Assembly (NCBI GenBank): GCA_030694425.1
Contig: JAUXYI010000017.1
Span: 1-64,000, forward strand
DNA: 64,000 bases
Source of the DNA: Thermodesulfovibrionia bacterium
Lineage (GTDB): Bacteria > Nitrospirota > Thermodesulfovibrionia > UBA6902 > BMS3Bbin08
Reading direction: 5' to 3'
The translations under genes were made by a program, and so were the position numbers. The notes beneath the pieces were generated by a model that saw only the letters and a list, made by a program, of their open reading frames with translations, was not told the DNA's origin and ran no database searches. Position 1 is the stretch's first letter, and each line of letters starts with the position of its first letter. Positions 2,316 through 53,211 of this stretch are shown here, piece after piece.

Positions 2316-5300
2316 TTACTCTATTATCTTCCTCTCTTCCTCTGTTATCCCATACAATCCATAAACAATGCCGTCTATCTTCTCGTCCGTGACTGCAATC
2401 TCACGCTCTATCTTCTCTCTTTCTGCCGAAGGCGGGAGGGAGTTTTTCTTTTTGTGGAGTTCGAGCATGCAGTCAACGAGAGAGGCGAGTTTGTCGTGAA
2501 CGGCTTTTTCAGCAGAGTTGTTGAAGTCGATGGTGCGAATGGGGAGGCTCTTAATAAATCTGGATTCATAGGAAAAATAACCGCCCCTGAAATTTGTGCT
2601 GATTTGATGATGATACCAGTCAATCAGCTTGCTATTTAAAAGACCGATTAGATATTTGGGAGTAATCGATCCTTTAGGCAGGATTCCATAGCCTCCGGCT
2701 GCACCGCCGCTAAAATAATACTTGCCTTCTCCATCAAAACAATAAGAGGCAGATGCTGCAATATCAGGCGTGATAATTTTTCTTAAGGTAAACTTATCAA
2801 GGCTTTTGGGATAAATATACGCATACCATCTTTCACCTTTCATCTTTCCGTCTTCTCTATTTTCGAGGTATTTCTTGTTCTCATGAAGATAGGCCCAGCA
2901 TAAGGGATATTTTTCCTGAAACTCCTTCTTGGATATAAGTCGCCCATCTTCATAAGGGAAAAGAACAACCTTCTCGTTTGCTTCTATTATGTAACGCCGC
3001 ATCTGACCGCCTTTTATAAGTGGCTTTAGCGGTTCTGTTTCAAGCTCAAAATCTTTATCCAATTCTTTGGAGTGAACGGTTATTAGTTTGCCTTTATGTT
3101 CTTTGACATCCAGTATATAAATCTTATCCGCACTTGTTTTTAGCCCCTGAAAAATTCTTTCTGTGACTTCTTCAAGAGGAAGTGAGTGCTGTTTGAGTTT
3201 TTCCACAAGAGATGATGATTCTTCAAAATGGAATCTCCATGGTGAAGGGGATACGTGTTTTTTAGATACCGAAGCAATTCTCATGGCCTCATCTGAATAC
3301 TTATCGCTCGCGATTACTTTCTCTAATTGTTCAATGGGGTTTAGGAGTTTAATGATTTCCGCATACTTGAAATTCCGAGTTTTGTTTTTAGATAAGAACT
3401 GAAGGCAAGTGTATGTGCTTGCACCTTCAAATATCTGATTATCGCGAAAGTTCACAATCTCCATCACTGAATTGCTATCTGAAATTAATTTTCTTAACCC
3501 TTGCCCGTACGAAGCCTGAAAGAATTTGTGAGGCAATATGTATCCGTGTATCCCGCCTTCTTTCAATAGCTGGAGGGCCTTTTCAACAAATAGAACATAA
3601 ATGTCATAGTTGCCTTTGGACGACATGTATTTATTATTGAAGTAAGCAACCTCTTCTCTCGGTAAAGTCTGAATTCTTACATACGGAGGATTGCCAATCA
3701 CCACATCAAAACCTCCGTTTGCTATTATCTCCCCAAACCCCACGCTCTTTGAATTCCAGTCAAATGGATTTATCCTGCTCTTTGTTTCATCGTCAAAAAG
3801 GTTGCCCTGATCCAATATGTCATATCCGATAAGACTGTTTCCGCATTTGATGTTGTTGCTCAATGGAGGAAGAAGGTGCTGCTTTTTCGGAAGCATTCCG
3901 CGCTCGCCTTCGAGGGCTTTCAGATAAAGGCTCATCATTGTTATCTCAACTGCCTGAGGGTCAATGTCAACCCCAAAGATATTATTTCTTAATATCATTG
4001 CTTTTGTGCGTAAGGGTAGAGCCAGATCCTCCGGCCCTACTTTATGGTAAAAGTCAAAGAATTGTGTCTGCGCCTCTTTTGTATGCTTACGATAATATTC
4101 AAGATGATAATCCAACAAGTATTGATATGCTCCGAGCAGAAATGAGCCTGAGCCGCACGCCGGGTCAAGTATCTTTATCTTTTCTATCTGTCTCGGCGAC
4201 TTTCCTTCGATGATTTTACCGACTGTATTTTTAACGATGTAATCAACAATATATTTAGGTGTGTAATAGACACCGCCTGCTTTTCTTACATCAGGTTTTT
4301 CTTCTACCTTAACTCTTTGGGGCGTAACTCTGATTGTGCTTCCCAGATACCGTTCATAAATACTGCCAAGAAGTTCAACACCTATAGCGTCAAAACGGTA
4401 ACGACTTTTAGGGAAATACAGGTTTTCGATAATCTCTGCTAAAATGCCTGAATCTACTTTTGCTGTTTCACAGGCATGGGGTTTAAAAATATCTCCGTTT
4501 AAGTCGTCGTTGACCTCATGAAAAAGGTCTATCAAATGCGTCATTATGGATTTTCGTCTGCCCTCTTCTCTCCACTGTGCGACAATCTCCCATAGTTCTC
4601 TGTCAGGTCTTATTTTCCTGTCTTCTGCAATACGAATAAAAATAATCCGGTCAAGGAGTCTTTGAACAACATCATTCAAGAGCTTTACATCAAATTCAGG
4701 ATTTCGCCTGTGTAAATCTTTTGCAAGTTCTGTCCGCCAGTTTGTAAGGTCTTCAAGAAAAGATTTGTCAGGGGGGATTCTAAGTCTTTTACTTTTTGTA
4801 TCTCTCGGCAGAAGGGCTTCTAAAGAGCCACGTTCTACTCTTTCCTTTGACAACTCCCATAGTTTCTCAAGGTTATCAGGATAATCGGTATATTTAAAAT
4901 CAAAGATAAGACCTTCATTTGGAAACCTCGGATTTGGTTTGAGTGAAGCATCATAGAGCCTGAATTCTTCAAAGTCTGTAAGGATTACAAAATAGACTTC
5001 TTTCGTTGACCATGCATATGTCTTTGCCTGAAGTATATGGTTTATATCATCAAGCGCTACTGAGGGGGATTTCGCCTCAATAAAAAATTTGGTGGCGCCA
5101 TTTATGCGGAAATTGTAATCCGGTCTGCCTGTTGTCTCAGGCGATAATTCAACAATAACATCTCTTTCATGCGGAGTTTTTTGGGCTTTATTCTCAATAT
5201 CCCAGCCGAGGGCTTTGAAAAAGGGATTTATGAAGTCAATTCTGACCTGCGCTTCTATATATCCTTTAGAGACGTAGTGATTTTTGTCTTTCTCAAATTT

Positions 5301-38912: not shown

Positions 38913-39788
38913 ATGATAAACATTGTAGAAAGATTCCTGAATTACCTGACTGTAGAGAAAGGACTTTCAGCAAATACAATAGAGTCATACAAAAACGATA
39001 TTAACAAGTTCAAAAAATATCTTTCGGACATCAACAAGGATATAACGGGTTTTACCAGAAGTGATGTCATCTCTTATTTAAATCACCTCAGAGATAACAA
39101 CAACCAAACCCCAACCATAGCCCGAAATATTGCCAGCATCAGGGGTTTATGCAGATTCATGCTCTCAGAGGGAATAATAGAAGAAGACCCGCTTGAAAAC
39201 CTCAGCACTCCAAAAGGATGGAAACACCTTCCGAAAATACTGGGGATTGAAGATGTTGTTTCTCTAATAGAAAAACCAAAAGGCAAAAAATTCTCATTGA
39301 GAGACAGGGCAATTCTTGAGTTTATGTATTCCTCCGGCTTGAGGGCAAGCGAAATAATTAACATGAAACTGAACGACATAAATTTTGAGGCAGGCTTTAT
39401 CACGGTTATCGGCAAAGGCTCCAAGGAGAGAGTGGTTCCAATGAATGAAAGGGCAATAAAGTCATTAAAAAAATACATAAATGAATTAAGACCATCTATT
39501 CTTAAGAAAAAAACAAGCCCTAATTTATTTATTGCAAAGGGCGGAAAGCCCATGACACGGCAGCGATTGTGGCAGTTAATAAAACTATACTCTGAAGGAT
39601 TACCAATAAAAATATCTCCGCACACCCTCAGGCATTGTTTTGCAAGCCATCTTTTAGATGGAGGCGCAGATTTGAGGGCGCTTCAAAAAATGCTCGGACA
39701 CGCCGATATATCAACAACTCAAATATATACCACGGTGACACCCGAAAGGCTTAAAAAAGTGCACAAGGAATATCACCCGCGGGGGTAA
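38913..39788 (+). CDS. Tyrosine recombinase XerC/XerD
   Basis: R-K-H-R-H-Y set: SGLRASEI, GKGSKERVVP, SPHTLRHCFASHLLDGGADLRALQKMLGHADISTTQIYT. Confidence 0.95.
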   Translation: MINIVERFLNYLTVEKGLSANTIESYKNDINKFKKYLSDINKDITGFTRSDVISYLNHLRDNNNQTPTIARNIASIRGLCRFMLSEGIIEEDPLENLSTPKGWKHLPKILGIEDVVSLIEKPKGKKFSLRDRAILEFMYSSGLRASEIINMKLNDINFEAGFITVIGKGSKERVVPMNERAIKSLKKYINELRPSILKKKTSPNLFIAKGGKPMTRQRLWQLIKLYSEGLPIKISPHTLRHCFASHLLDGGADLRALQKMLGHADISTTQIYTTVTPERLKKVHKEYHPRG

Positions 39789-39903
39789 AAGGATCGAAAA
39801 TAATTTTTTAAAAATGTCGGGAATCCTTGATTTTGTCGGAAAAGCTTACACTTTTTAAGCCTTGAGTTTTATAAAATCGTTAAAAATCAATTTATTTTTA
39901 ACG

Positions 39904-45063: not shown

Positions 45064-45273
45064 TTATGCAAAAACCAATCTACCTTTAGGCTTAGGAATT
45101 GGGCGTCCTAATTCTTTTGCAGTCTCTATCCACTCTTTAATAATAATCTCGACGTTAGTGAGTGCTTCCTTATATGTAGCGCCATCCGCTGCACATCCCG
45201 GCAACTCTGGTGCTTCAGCAATAAAAGCTTGGTCGTCTTCGCTCCAATAGATAATTATTTCGTATTTACTCAT
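45064..45273 (-). CDS. hicB: HicB-family antitoxin
   Basis: YEIIIYWSEDDQAFIAEAPELPGCAADGATYKEALTNVEIIIKEWIETAKELGRPIP. Confidence 0.92.
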   Translation of the reverse strand: MSKYEIIIYWSEDDQAFIAEAPELPGCAADGATYKEALTNVEIIIKEWIETAKELGRPIPKPKGRLVFA

Positions 45274-45274
45274 C

Positions 45275-45505
45275 TTATTTTTCTCCTAACTTGTGTTTCA
45301 GAATTACATTACGAACCTGCTTAACCTGATAAGGCTTTGACTTATTACCTTTAGGCTGTAAATTAAGTATCTCCTCAATGTCATCTTTTGTAAATATATG
45401 ATGGCTGCCACGAATTCTTTCGTCAAACCCTAAATATTTCAAAAGACCACATAATCCATCAAAAGGAATATTAGCATCGGATGTCCCACTTAAAACTTGT
45501 AACAA
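45275..45505 (-). CDS. hicA: HicA-family toxin
   Basis: LCGLLKYLGFDERIRGSHHIFTKDDIEEILNLQPKGNKSKPYQVKQVRNVI (HicA catalytic His). Confidence 0.88.
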   Translation of the reverse strand: MLQVLSGTSDANIPFDGLCGLLKYLGFDERIRGSHHIFTKDDIEEILNLQPKGNKSKPYQVKQVRNVILKHKLGEK

Positions 45506-45729: not shown

Positions 45730-45860
45730 AAATGGTCAATTAGGGGTCTTGAATTATCACTTTTTCCCCTTCTACCTTCTTTAATGCTTTGTATATGATA
45801 CTGAATTAAATAAAAAATTAAACCAAAATTTCTTATATTTCAAGACCCCATGACTCATTT
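45730..45860. repeat. 131-bp inverted-repeat element
   Basis: aaatggtcaattaggggtcttgaattat versus right-arm complement aaatgagtcat-ggggtcttgaaatat. Confidence 0.75.
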
Positions 45861-45869
45861 CACAGTTCG

Positions 45870-45911
45870 TGCGGCACACCGCTTTTTCAAATTTATTTAA
45901 TTCGTGCCGCA
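45870..45911. repeat. Hairpin tgcggcac..gtgccgca flanking the nuclease cassette (possible attC-like stem)
   Basis: 8-bp perfect inverted arms adjacent to the 21-bp IR. Confidence 0.5.
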
Positions 45912-45926
45912 TGACGGCAAGGTGCT

Positions 45927-46885
45927 GTTGGCAGCAGGCATACTTGTCATTTGTTTGGAAATAAGTCGTCTTCTATTAATTTCATATATCTTTCAATGTA
46001 GAACATATCTGGTTCGTGTCGTGATGCCCTTACTCGTATTTCAAATTTTGGTTCTTGAACAGATGTGTTGTCAAATAGAATAAGTCCTATTCCACAAATT
46101 CTTGATAAAACATCCAACCTCGCAATTTCTTCCTTTGAGGATGTGTTGGGAATAACAATATAGGATTTATGACTAAATAGTTTGTAAGCATTTGCTTGTC
46201 CAAATGCTTGTATTAAGTCAAGCGTGTTAGTTTTTATTTCAGCAGAGATAATTTCTGTTGGTGGTTTTATTATAGCACTCGGTCTTGGAGATCTAATACC
46301 AATTACATCTGGAGTCCCCCATTTGTCTTGGAATATTTTACCACCAAGAGGAACCGCCCGAGTGCATTCCTCCAAACTATTTACAATCCAGTCAGCAAAA
46401 GGAGCATAAAAATCTTCTTCTTTCAAAGGCGTAAAAGTTTTGCTTGTCGGGTCACTTGTCGTTTTAACTGGTGACTGTGATTGTACTGGTCCATTTGTAG
46501 TTTGTGTAATTGTGTTAGCAAGTCCTAATTTTTGAATGATGTAATTTTTTCCAGCGTCTGTAATTTTCCAAACCCCACGCTCGGGATTTTCAAGATATCC
46601 GTCTTTGTCTTTTAACTGTTGAGATGAACTTGCTATTCTATGCCAATACAAAGGTTTGCCCACGCCTTTTTCAATTTCATATTCTTTGGCCTTTAGTTCC
46701 CAATATTCAGGAACTTTTGAATTGATTAATTCTCTGTCGCCTTCTCCACCAATGTCTATGAATAGTTTGAGCAAGGCGTCTTTTCTGCTTTTTATTTTCA
46801 TTATCGTATTAGTTTGGTTTTACAAATTATTTGTCACGCTGTAAAGTTAAAAGTTTGCACTGTCACAAGTATGCCTGCTGCCAAC
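45927..46885. mobile_element. Single-gene cassette bounded by 21-bp perfect inverted repeats (possible integron-type cassette)
   Basis: gttggcagcaggcatacttgt at 45927-45947 and acaagtatgcctgctgccaac at 46865-46885. Confidence 0.6.
45947..46801 (-). CDS. Winged-helix (Mrr_N-like) plus PD-(D/E)XK-like nuclease
   Basis: GTPDVIGIRSPR...EIISAEIKTNTLDLIQAFGQANAYKLFSHKSYIVIP (D...ExK core); N-terminal wHTH-like region. Confidence 0.75.
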   Translation of the reverse strand: MKIKSRKDALLKLFIDIGGEGDRELINSKVPEYWELKAKEYEIEKGVGKPLYWHRIASSSQQLKDKDGYLENPERGVWKITDAGKNYIIQKLGLANTITQTTNGPVQSQSPVKTTSDPTSKTFTPLKEEDFYAPFADWIVNSLEECTRAVPLGGKIFQDKWGTPDVIGIRSPRPSAIIKPPTEIISAEIKTNTLDLIQAFGQANAYKLFSHKSYIVIPNTSSKEEIARLDVLSRICGIGLILFDNTSVQEPKFEIRVRASRHEPDMFYIERYMKLIEDDLFPNK

Positions 46886-46948
46886 GTATATCGTTTTATC
46901 CATAGTGCCGGAGGCATTGCGGATAAAACGGGTTGAACTGAGCCGTTG
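46882..46948 (-). repeat. attC-like palindromic site
   Basis: Minus strand ACTCAAC(G)..CGTTTTATCC..GGATAAAACG-atata-CGTTGGCA. Confidence 0.5.
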
Positions 46949-47351: not shown

Positions 47352-48488
47352 ATGGCTATTTATATTCCTCAAAGGCAACTTGAAAACCTGTCAAAGCTAC
47401 TTTCTCCTAATAAACTAATTGTGATTTATGGGCCACGGCGATGCGGCAAAACAACCTTGCTTAATAAGTTTTTAGAAGGCATTAGCGAGAAATATCTCCT
47501 TGTAAGCGGAGAGGATTTAACGGTTCAAAATTACCTGAGCAGTCAGTCTATCCAAAAACTCAGGGAGTTTGTAGGGGGGAATGAGTTAATTGCAATAGAT
47601 GAGGCTCAAAGGATAGAAAAGATTGGCATAAACCTGAAATTAATCGTTGACCATATAAAAAATATAAAGGTTATTGCAACAGGTTCCTCATCTTTTGATC
47701 TGGAAAGGGATGTCGGAGAACCTCTTACAGGCAGAAAATTTGTTCTGAAACTTTTCCCATTGGCTCAGATGGAAATATCCAGAATTGAACAGAGATTTGA
47801 GACCGATGCAAACCTGGAGTCAAGGTTAATCTATGGGTCTTATCCAGAGATAGTAATTACAAACGATAATAAGCAAAGAGAACTCTACCTGAGAGAGATA
47901 ATAAGTTCATATTTATATAAAGATATTCTTGAACTTGAGGGAATCAGGCATTCTAACAAACTCATAAGGCTCCTTCAGCTTCTTGCCTTTCAAATTGGCA
48001 AGGAGGTTTCTTATAACGAACTGGGCACACAACTCGGGATGAGCAAGAACACAGTTGAGAGATATCTTGACCTGCTTGAAAAGGTATTTGTGGTTAATAA
48101 GCTTTCGGGTTTTAGCAGAAATCTGCGAAAAGAGGTCAGCAAAAACCACCGTTATTATTTTTATGACAATGGCATACGCAATGCCATTATAGGTAATCTT
48201 AATCCTTTAGAAATGCGTGATGATACAGGAACATTGTGGGAAAACTACATCATAATGGAAAGGATAAAGAAACAGGAGTATCTTCAGGTAGTTGCCAATA
48301 ACTATTTCTGGAGGACTTATGACAAGAAGGAGATAGATTTAATAGAGGAAAGAGAAGGAAGGCTTTATGGCTATGAGATAAAATGGAAAAAGACTAAAGC
48401 AAGACCACCAAAGGACTGGCTTGCGACTTACAAAAATGCAACCTACGAAGTCATTACAAGGGAAAATTACCTTGAGTTTATCATATAA
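47352..48488 (+). CDS. AAA ATPase with DUF4143-like C-terminus
   Basis: VIYGPRRCGKTTLLNKFLE...IAIDEAQRIE...YFYDNGIRNAII. Confidence 0.9.
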   Translation: MAIYIPQRQLENLSKLLSPNKLIVIYGPRRCGKTTLLNKFLEGISEKYLLVSGEDLTVQNYLSSQSIQKLREFVGGNELIAIDEAQRIEKIGINLKLIVDHIKNIKVIATGSSSFDLERDVGEPLTGRKFVLKLFPLAQMEISRIEQRFETDANLESRLIYGSYPEIVITNDNKQRELYLREIISSYLYKDILELEGIRHSNKLIRLLQLLAFQIGKEVSYNELGTQLGMSKNTVERYLDLLEKVFVVNKLSGFSRNLRKEVSKNHRYYFYDNGIRNAIIGNLNPLEMRDDTGTLWENYIIMERIKKQEYLQVVANNYFWRTYDKKEIDLIEEREGRLYGYEIKWKKTKARPPKDWLATYKNATYEVITRENYLEFII

Positions 48489-53052: not shown

Positions 53053-53211
53053 AAACCGTTAATTAGAGTCTGTCCATAAACTAACCTTGTCTGTCTGTCA
53101 TTCCGGCAGTCCTTAAGCCGGAATCCAGTGGTTTAAATGCCTTCTGGATGCAGGATCAAGTCCGGCATGACAACAATAAGACATTTATGGACAGACTCTA
53201 ATTAACGGTTT
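53053..53211. mobile_element. 159-bp MITE-like element with 28-bp perfect terminal inverted repeats
   Basis: aaaccgttaattagagtctgtccataaa ... tttatggacagactctaattaacggttt; inner GTCATTCCGGC..GGAATCCAG..CTTCTGGAT..GTCCGGCATGAC core. Confidence 0.88.

Follow-up and report, generated by a model that had tools for sequence, protein, structure and literature searches.

A single nuclease gene between inverted repeats

We analysed one window, the whole 64,000-nucleotide stretch of Thermodesulfovibrionia contig JAUXYI010000017.1, in which a lone nuclease gene lies on the minus strand between two arms of a 21-bp inverted repeat. The arms are 100% complementary, as had been read from the sequence alone, and 917 nt separate them. 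The nuclease stop codon shares 1 nt with one arm, and the other arm stands 64 nt ahead of the start codon. A scan of ~460 kb of host DNA returned only a handful of perfect inverted repeats of at least 16 bp spaced 0.3-3.5 kb apart, so that a 21-bp repeat is beyond chance. The repeat ends carry the AAC/GTT cores of R boxes (TGCCAAC / GTTGGCA), which bound the gene. The features of the locus are as follows.

45947..46801, minus strand: nuclease gene, 284 aa, with an Mrr_N winged helix at residues 10-87 and PD-(D/E)XK-type motifs GTPDVIG ... SAEIK
46865..46885: upstream repeat arm, holding R' (GTTGGCA on the minus strand) of the upstream site and an extension into the putative cassette
45927..45947: downstream repeat arm, holding R'' (TGCCAAC on the minus strand) of the putative cassette's own site and an extension
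46879..46938, minus strand: site B, upstream attC-like site; R'' GTTCAAC 46932-46938, 1 nt, L'' CGTTTTATCC 46921-46930, loop, L' GGATAAAACG 46892-46901, 6 nt, R' GTTGGCA 46879-46885
45862..45933, minus strand: site A, downstream attC-like site of the putative cassette; R'' TGCCAAC, 1 nt, imperfect L'' GCACCTTGC 45917-45925 / L' GCGGTGTGC 45874-45882, 5 nt, G|AACTG
45868..46884, minus strand: putative cassette of 1017 bp, from the T of the upstream-site G|TT to the G preceding the downstream G|AACTG
45843..45868: right half of the putative pre-insertion site, which folds with site B into one longer hairpin

The sequence-only reading had placed a hairpin beside each arm. The upstream one, which lies outside the repeat and forms the L stem of site B, is a perfect 10-bp stem; the downstream 8-bp pair TGCGGCAC/GTGCCGCA (45870-45877/45904-45911) is present, weaker, and may not be the functional stem. 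The R''-L''-L'-R' geometry claimed for the upstream side likewise held, with one correction: the R'' box is the stem-adjacent GTTCAAC, which fits RYYYAAC, and not the farther ACTCAAC. The L stem of site A has 6 Watson-Crick and 2 GU pairs out of 9 and is weak on its own (shuffle p 0.059); the spacers of the site are 1 and 5 nt and its crossover is G|A, as at other terminal sites of the R2-type family described below. The crossover that delimits the putative cassette was placed by the integron G|TT rule. When the outer flanks were joined they folded better than random flanks (p 0.007), as expected if a cassette had entered an older attC-like site; their similarity by plain sequence alone was not significant (p 0.1-0.18). 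For the putative cassette, neither an excised circle nor an empty site was seen, and a search of the window against Rfam gave no match.

A profile search confirmed the winged-helix-like domain suspected in the nuclease, with a match to Mrr_N (PF14338) at 32.9 bits against a cut-off of 29.5 (E 7e-8). The motifs GTPD...AE(I/V)K are kept in 14 proteins, and relatives with GTPDVIG...SAEIK motifs occur in a Methanophagales MAG, Desulfonema, Burkholderiaceae and 10 more genomes of the phylum. The cargo is thus probably, to judge by its domain and motifs, an Mrr_N/PD-(D/E)XK restriction nuclease, and a role in restriction or anti-phage defence is plausible. PADLOC matched it to a type IV restriction model at E 0.002 only. 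No solved relative was found in the PDB by sequence, the AlphaFold model (pLDDT 43) was too poor for interpretation, and the nuclease was not found in phages and viral contigs.

Downstream and on the same strand are HicA/HicB toxin-antitoxin genes (45064-45505), around which no site was found. A gene for an AAA/DUF4143 protein (47352-48488; PADLOC PDC-S01, E 1.8e-153) is divergent from the nuclease gene, and the Desulfonema homologue (L017) too has a divergent DUF4143-like gene. A perfect 28-bp inverted repeat of short span at 53053-53211 is insertion-sequence-like. The window had been described as free of integrases; it holds no integron integrase, but it does encode one tyrosine recombinase (~38915-39790, plus strand), which groups with Xer proteins in a tree.

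Canonical attCs and a non-canonical site family

The proposal that the ends are attC sites was examined with a covariance model (R1) built from 19 canonical attCs, taken from beside IntI genes of the phylum and from class 1 integrons. R1 recovered attCs outside its training set, used as positive controls. Across the window it gave no match at E<=1, and with filters off there was still none at sites A and B, so a canonical attC at this locus was not borne out. In the host genome R1 matched 7 attCs, isolated and all elsewhere (C19:57081, C19:58587, C45:47370, C23:1884, C60:1413, C25:16936 and C1:23334; L229-L234). IntI (TIGR02249) had no match above cut-off in the host assembly, which is 96% complete, and exceeded the cut-off in 68/296 genomes of the phylum. 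Nor did the same ends recur around other genes: exact or near ends were confined to this locus among the host, 396 phylum genomes, viral contigs and plasmids, and end-like matches outside it were about as numerous as in a reversed control. The sequence-only reading had named these two outcomes, no attC match and ends found nowhere else, as what would refute it. Its cassette interpretation nevertheless appears largely right; the test was drawn too tightly, since each cassette has an R-box sequence of its own and what sites A and B resemble is a non-canonical family.

This family emerged from the long-inverted-repeat scan of the host DNA, which revealed on contig C7 a repeat-bounded unit with GTTAGGCGACATGTGC around a VapC-like toxin and its partner, flanked by two directly repeated sites. 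A query with one C7 site retrieved a family of attC-like sites from the host as well as from relatives. The layout of these R2-type sites is R''-1 nt-L''...L'-5 nt-R' with GTT/AAC cores. Their stems carry compensatory changes: in 12 sites, 14 cells were altered on both sides, 0/500 shuffles scored as high, and slid controls were far lower. A covariance model of the 12 sites (R2) found ~14 sites in the host and more in 13/59 relatives, and R1 had no match at loci holding R2-type arrays. Toxin-antitoxin genes, on the same strand, make up most of the cargo of R2-type cassettes. Host family sites lie on C95 (13677, 16552, 18112, 37170), C7, C19, C61, C87 and C91, in clusters and singly, often with toxin-antitoxin cargo.

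Some R2-type cassettes are bounded by inverted repeats of 16-23 bp that start at GTT.

Extended repeat lengths: G000:C19 (host), 22/23 bp; G010:C29, 22/23 bp; G053:C27, 16/17 bp; G000:C7, 16/16 bp

The G010:C29 cassette with the 22/23-bp repeat is HicAB and adjoins a recombinase gene. R stems longer than 13 bp were found in 4/10 R2-type pairs with a GTT core versus 0/23 canonical pairs (maximum 13), and that of the nuclease cassette pairs at 21/21, extending beyond 13 bp into the cassette as in some R2-type cassettes. Since repeat length did not differ significantly overall between R1- and R2-type cassettes (Mann-Whitney p 0.26), a length of 21 bp is not enough by itself to assign the class. 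In three independent cassettes (L292, L302, L348) the first mismatch of the long R stem falls at the same place, the 11th base, with A opposite C; it may be an extrahelical or strand-choice mark.

The R2 score of site B itself was not significant (5.8 bits, E 3.9), in the correct register, and the site is without the family core AAAAG...CTTTT. Its geometry is that of the family, with 1/6-nt spacers (d=1, e=6) and a perfect 10-bp stem. When 12,385 GTT positions of the host DNA were scanned, only two reached a 10-bp stem, one being a family site and the other site B. A geometry descriptor that uses no sequence, applied with stems of at least 9 to 478 kb of host DNA, returned only family sites, a site on contig C32 beside a toxin-antitoxin pair, and site B; a Markov null for the whole geometry range gave ~0.5 per 478 kb.

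Candidate recombinase and proposed movement of the nuclease gene

A tyrosine recombinase is associated with this site family.

L012 (G000:C32) 3391-4599, minus strand: C32 tyrosine recombinase, 403 aa, followed by same-strand site-bounded genes

The C32 sites are at 1229-1312 and 598-681; they bound RelBE-like genes, and an IS3-type insertion follows the recombinase. The protein has a ~115-aa N-terminal extension, and its N-terminal domain is common to some true IntIs. In the tree, where IntI and Xer split, its clade falls on the IntI side, yet outside IntI itself, and over the whole IntI-specific insert it and its orthologues show an alignment gap. Orthologues (at least 55% identity) were found in 11/60 genomes. 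R2 sites occurred in 10/11 genomes with a C32-type recombinase versus 4/49 without one (Fisher p 1.4e-7, phylogeny ignored). Sites and the recombinase or its remnants adjoin on one strand at G010:C29, G052:C1, G000:C32, C61, C9, G006:C30 and G010:C10, and G052, a one-contig genome, has a C32-type recombinase and an R2 site with no IntI match. The C32-type recombinase is thus tied to the R2-type family by association, which is not proof. The host remnants lie at C9 46401-46737 and C61 23476-24063; on C9 the 3' part of the gene comes directly after a site, as if cut through by recombination.

Homologues of the nuclease occur as cassettes elsewhere. The one in G083 lies directly behind a canonical attC (23.9 bits), between GTTAGCCATATG and CATATGGCTAAC, a 12-bp repeat, and G103 has sequence in common with G083 from that repeat boundary inward. 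The homologue in the Methanophagales MAG has a family-type site that begins 15 bp past its stop codon (22.2 bits, E 0.001), and a GTTAGGC core precedes the gene; this nuclease (L016 3260-4163) is in a cassette-type setting and is a possible cross-domain cassette. No cassette ends were found at the remaining nuclease homologues, and because those homologues are without them, the ends belong to a mobile unit.

We consider it highly probable that the nuclease gene is a single-gene, integron-type mobile cassette with non-canonical sites, likely moved by a C32-type recombinase. The cassette (45868-46884, minus strand) would carry its own folded recombination site, split on integration, and the 21-bp inverted repeat would be the long R stem of that site, parted into halves. 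It would have entered at the G|TT of a pre-existing attC-like site, site B, presumably by a single-strand mechanism. Sites A and B are not canonical attCs; their resemblance is to a lineage-specific family in which the spacers are asymmetric (1/5-6 nt), the L stem is long and the R stem measures 16-23 bp in several cassettes. The likeliest enzyme to have acted at the locus would be a member of the C32 family, from the IntI side of the tree and without the IntI-specific domain. Site geometry, like-built host cassettes and the homologues in cassettes elsewhere also back two points of the sequence-only reading, that the gene is oriented as in a cassette and that a lone nuclease is its cargo.

Among the other explanations, an ordinary IntI cassette with diverged attC sites, mobilised by a genuine IntI while in an earlier host and since left stranded, survives best, and we regard it as improbable. 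IntI is common in the phylum, the host has canonical attCs of its own and the G083 homologue sits behind one, all of which agree with such an origin; the silence of R1 at sites A and B even with filters off, spacers of 1/6 nt instead of about 6/7, and a 21-bp repeat where 23 canonical pairs reach at most 13 count against it. It is very unlikely that the gene is a transposon-like unit (a mobile insertion cassette), with 21-bp terminal repeats, a passenger gene and a transposase acting in trans. Such a unit would account for perfect terminal repeats with no recombinase inside, but no target-site duplication can be read from the flanks (GGTGCT / GTATAT at the repeat ends, and none at any other trim), no further copy of the ends exists in the host or the 396 phylum genomes, and the GTT/AAC cores and the correctly spaced hairpin outside the repeat are left unexplained. 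Least likely of all is a phase-variable invertible segment, which one gene flanked by perfect 21-bp inverted sites might suggest, since the neighbouring genes point outwards with no evident inward promoter, the hairpins beyond the two repeat arms show no sequence relationship to each other and no invertase is adjacent. The transposon and inverton readings were rejected for want of a target duplication, an invertase or an inward promoter.

Relation to known systems

Beyond the single cassette, the data raise the prospect, to which we give even chances, of a separate integron class in this phylum that reaches archaea. It would combine an IntI-side recombinase without the IntI-specific domain, co-oriented attC-like arrays with asymmetric spacers and no evident extrahelical L-stem base, R stems up to 23 bp, and cargo made up largely of toxin-antitoxin genes, with a restriction nuclease in the present case. 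The IntI-specific domain is treated as the defining mark of integrons, and tools seek IntI and canonical attCs. Should attC-like sites be recombined by an enzyme without this domain, the capture of cassettes would go back further or extend more widely than has been assumed, and arrays of this kind would escape present-day searches. With one nuclease family associated with either type of site, and present in an archaeal MAG as well as in bacteria, the gene would count as a defence-type gene traded via more than one cassette system.

Like integron cassettes and CALINs (IntegronFinder; PMC9024848), the unit described here consists of one co-oriented gene that splits the AAC/GTT R boxes, has a foldable site, and comes with sites that no integrase adjoins. 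It differs from them in that the canonical attC model fails, the spacers and L stem are unlike theirs, and the R stem is extended to 21 bp. The cargo resembles Mrr-type restriction endonucleases (Pfam Mrr_N) in having an Mrr_N winged helix followed by a PD-(D/E)XK-like region; it differs from them in giving no match to the Pfam Mrr catalytic domain and no NCBIfam match.

The C32 type shares an IntI-related catalytic domain with the integron-like subgroup of simple tyrosine recombinases (Smyshlyaev et al. 2021, PMC8138268); in the accessible part of that paper no cognate sites or cassettes are described for members without the insertion, unlike here. Within the accessible open-access literature we found no description of cognate sites for recombinases without the IntI domain. 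Ghaly et al. 2022 (PMC9668308) reported archaeal integrons and cross-domain sharing of cassettes. They treat the additional domain as defining for integrons and cite Messier and Roy 2001 for the IntI-specific domain being needed for integron recombination. Cross-domain cassettes are a point in common, the same nuclease family occurring in the Methanophagales MAG with a cassette-type site. The difference is that integrons are defined in that work by an IntI that has the additional domain, which is missing from the recombinase linked to the sites here.
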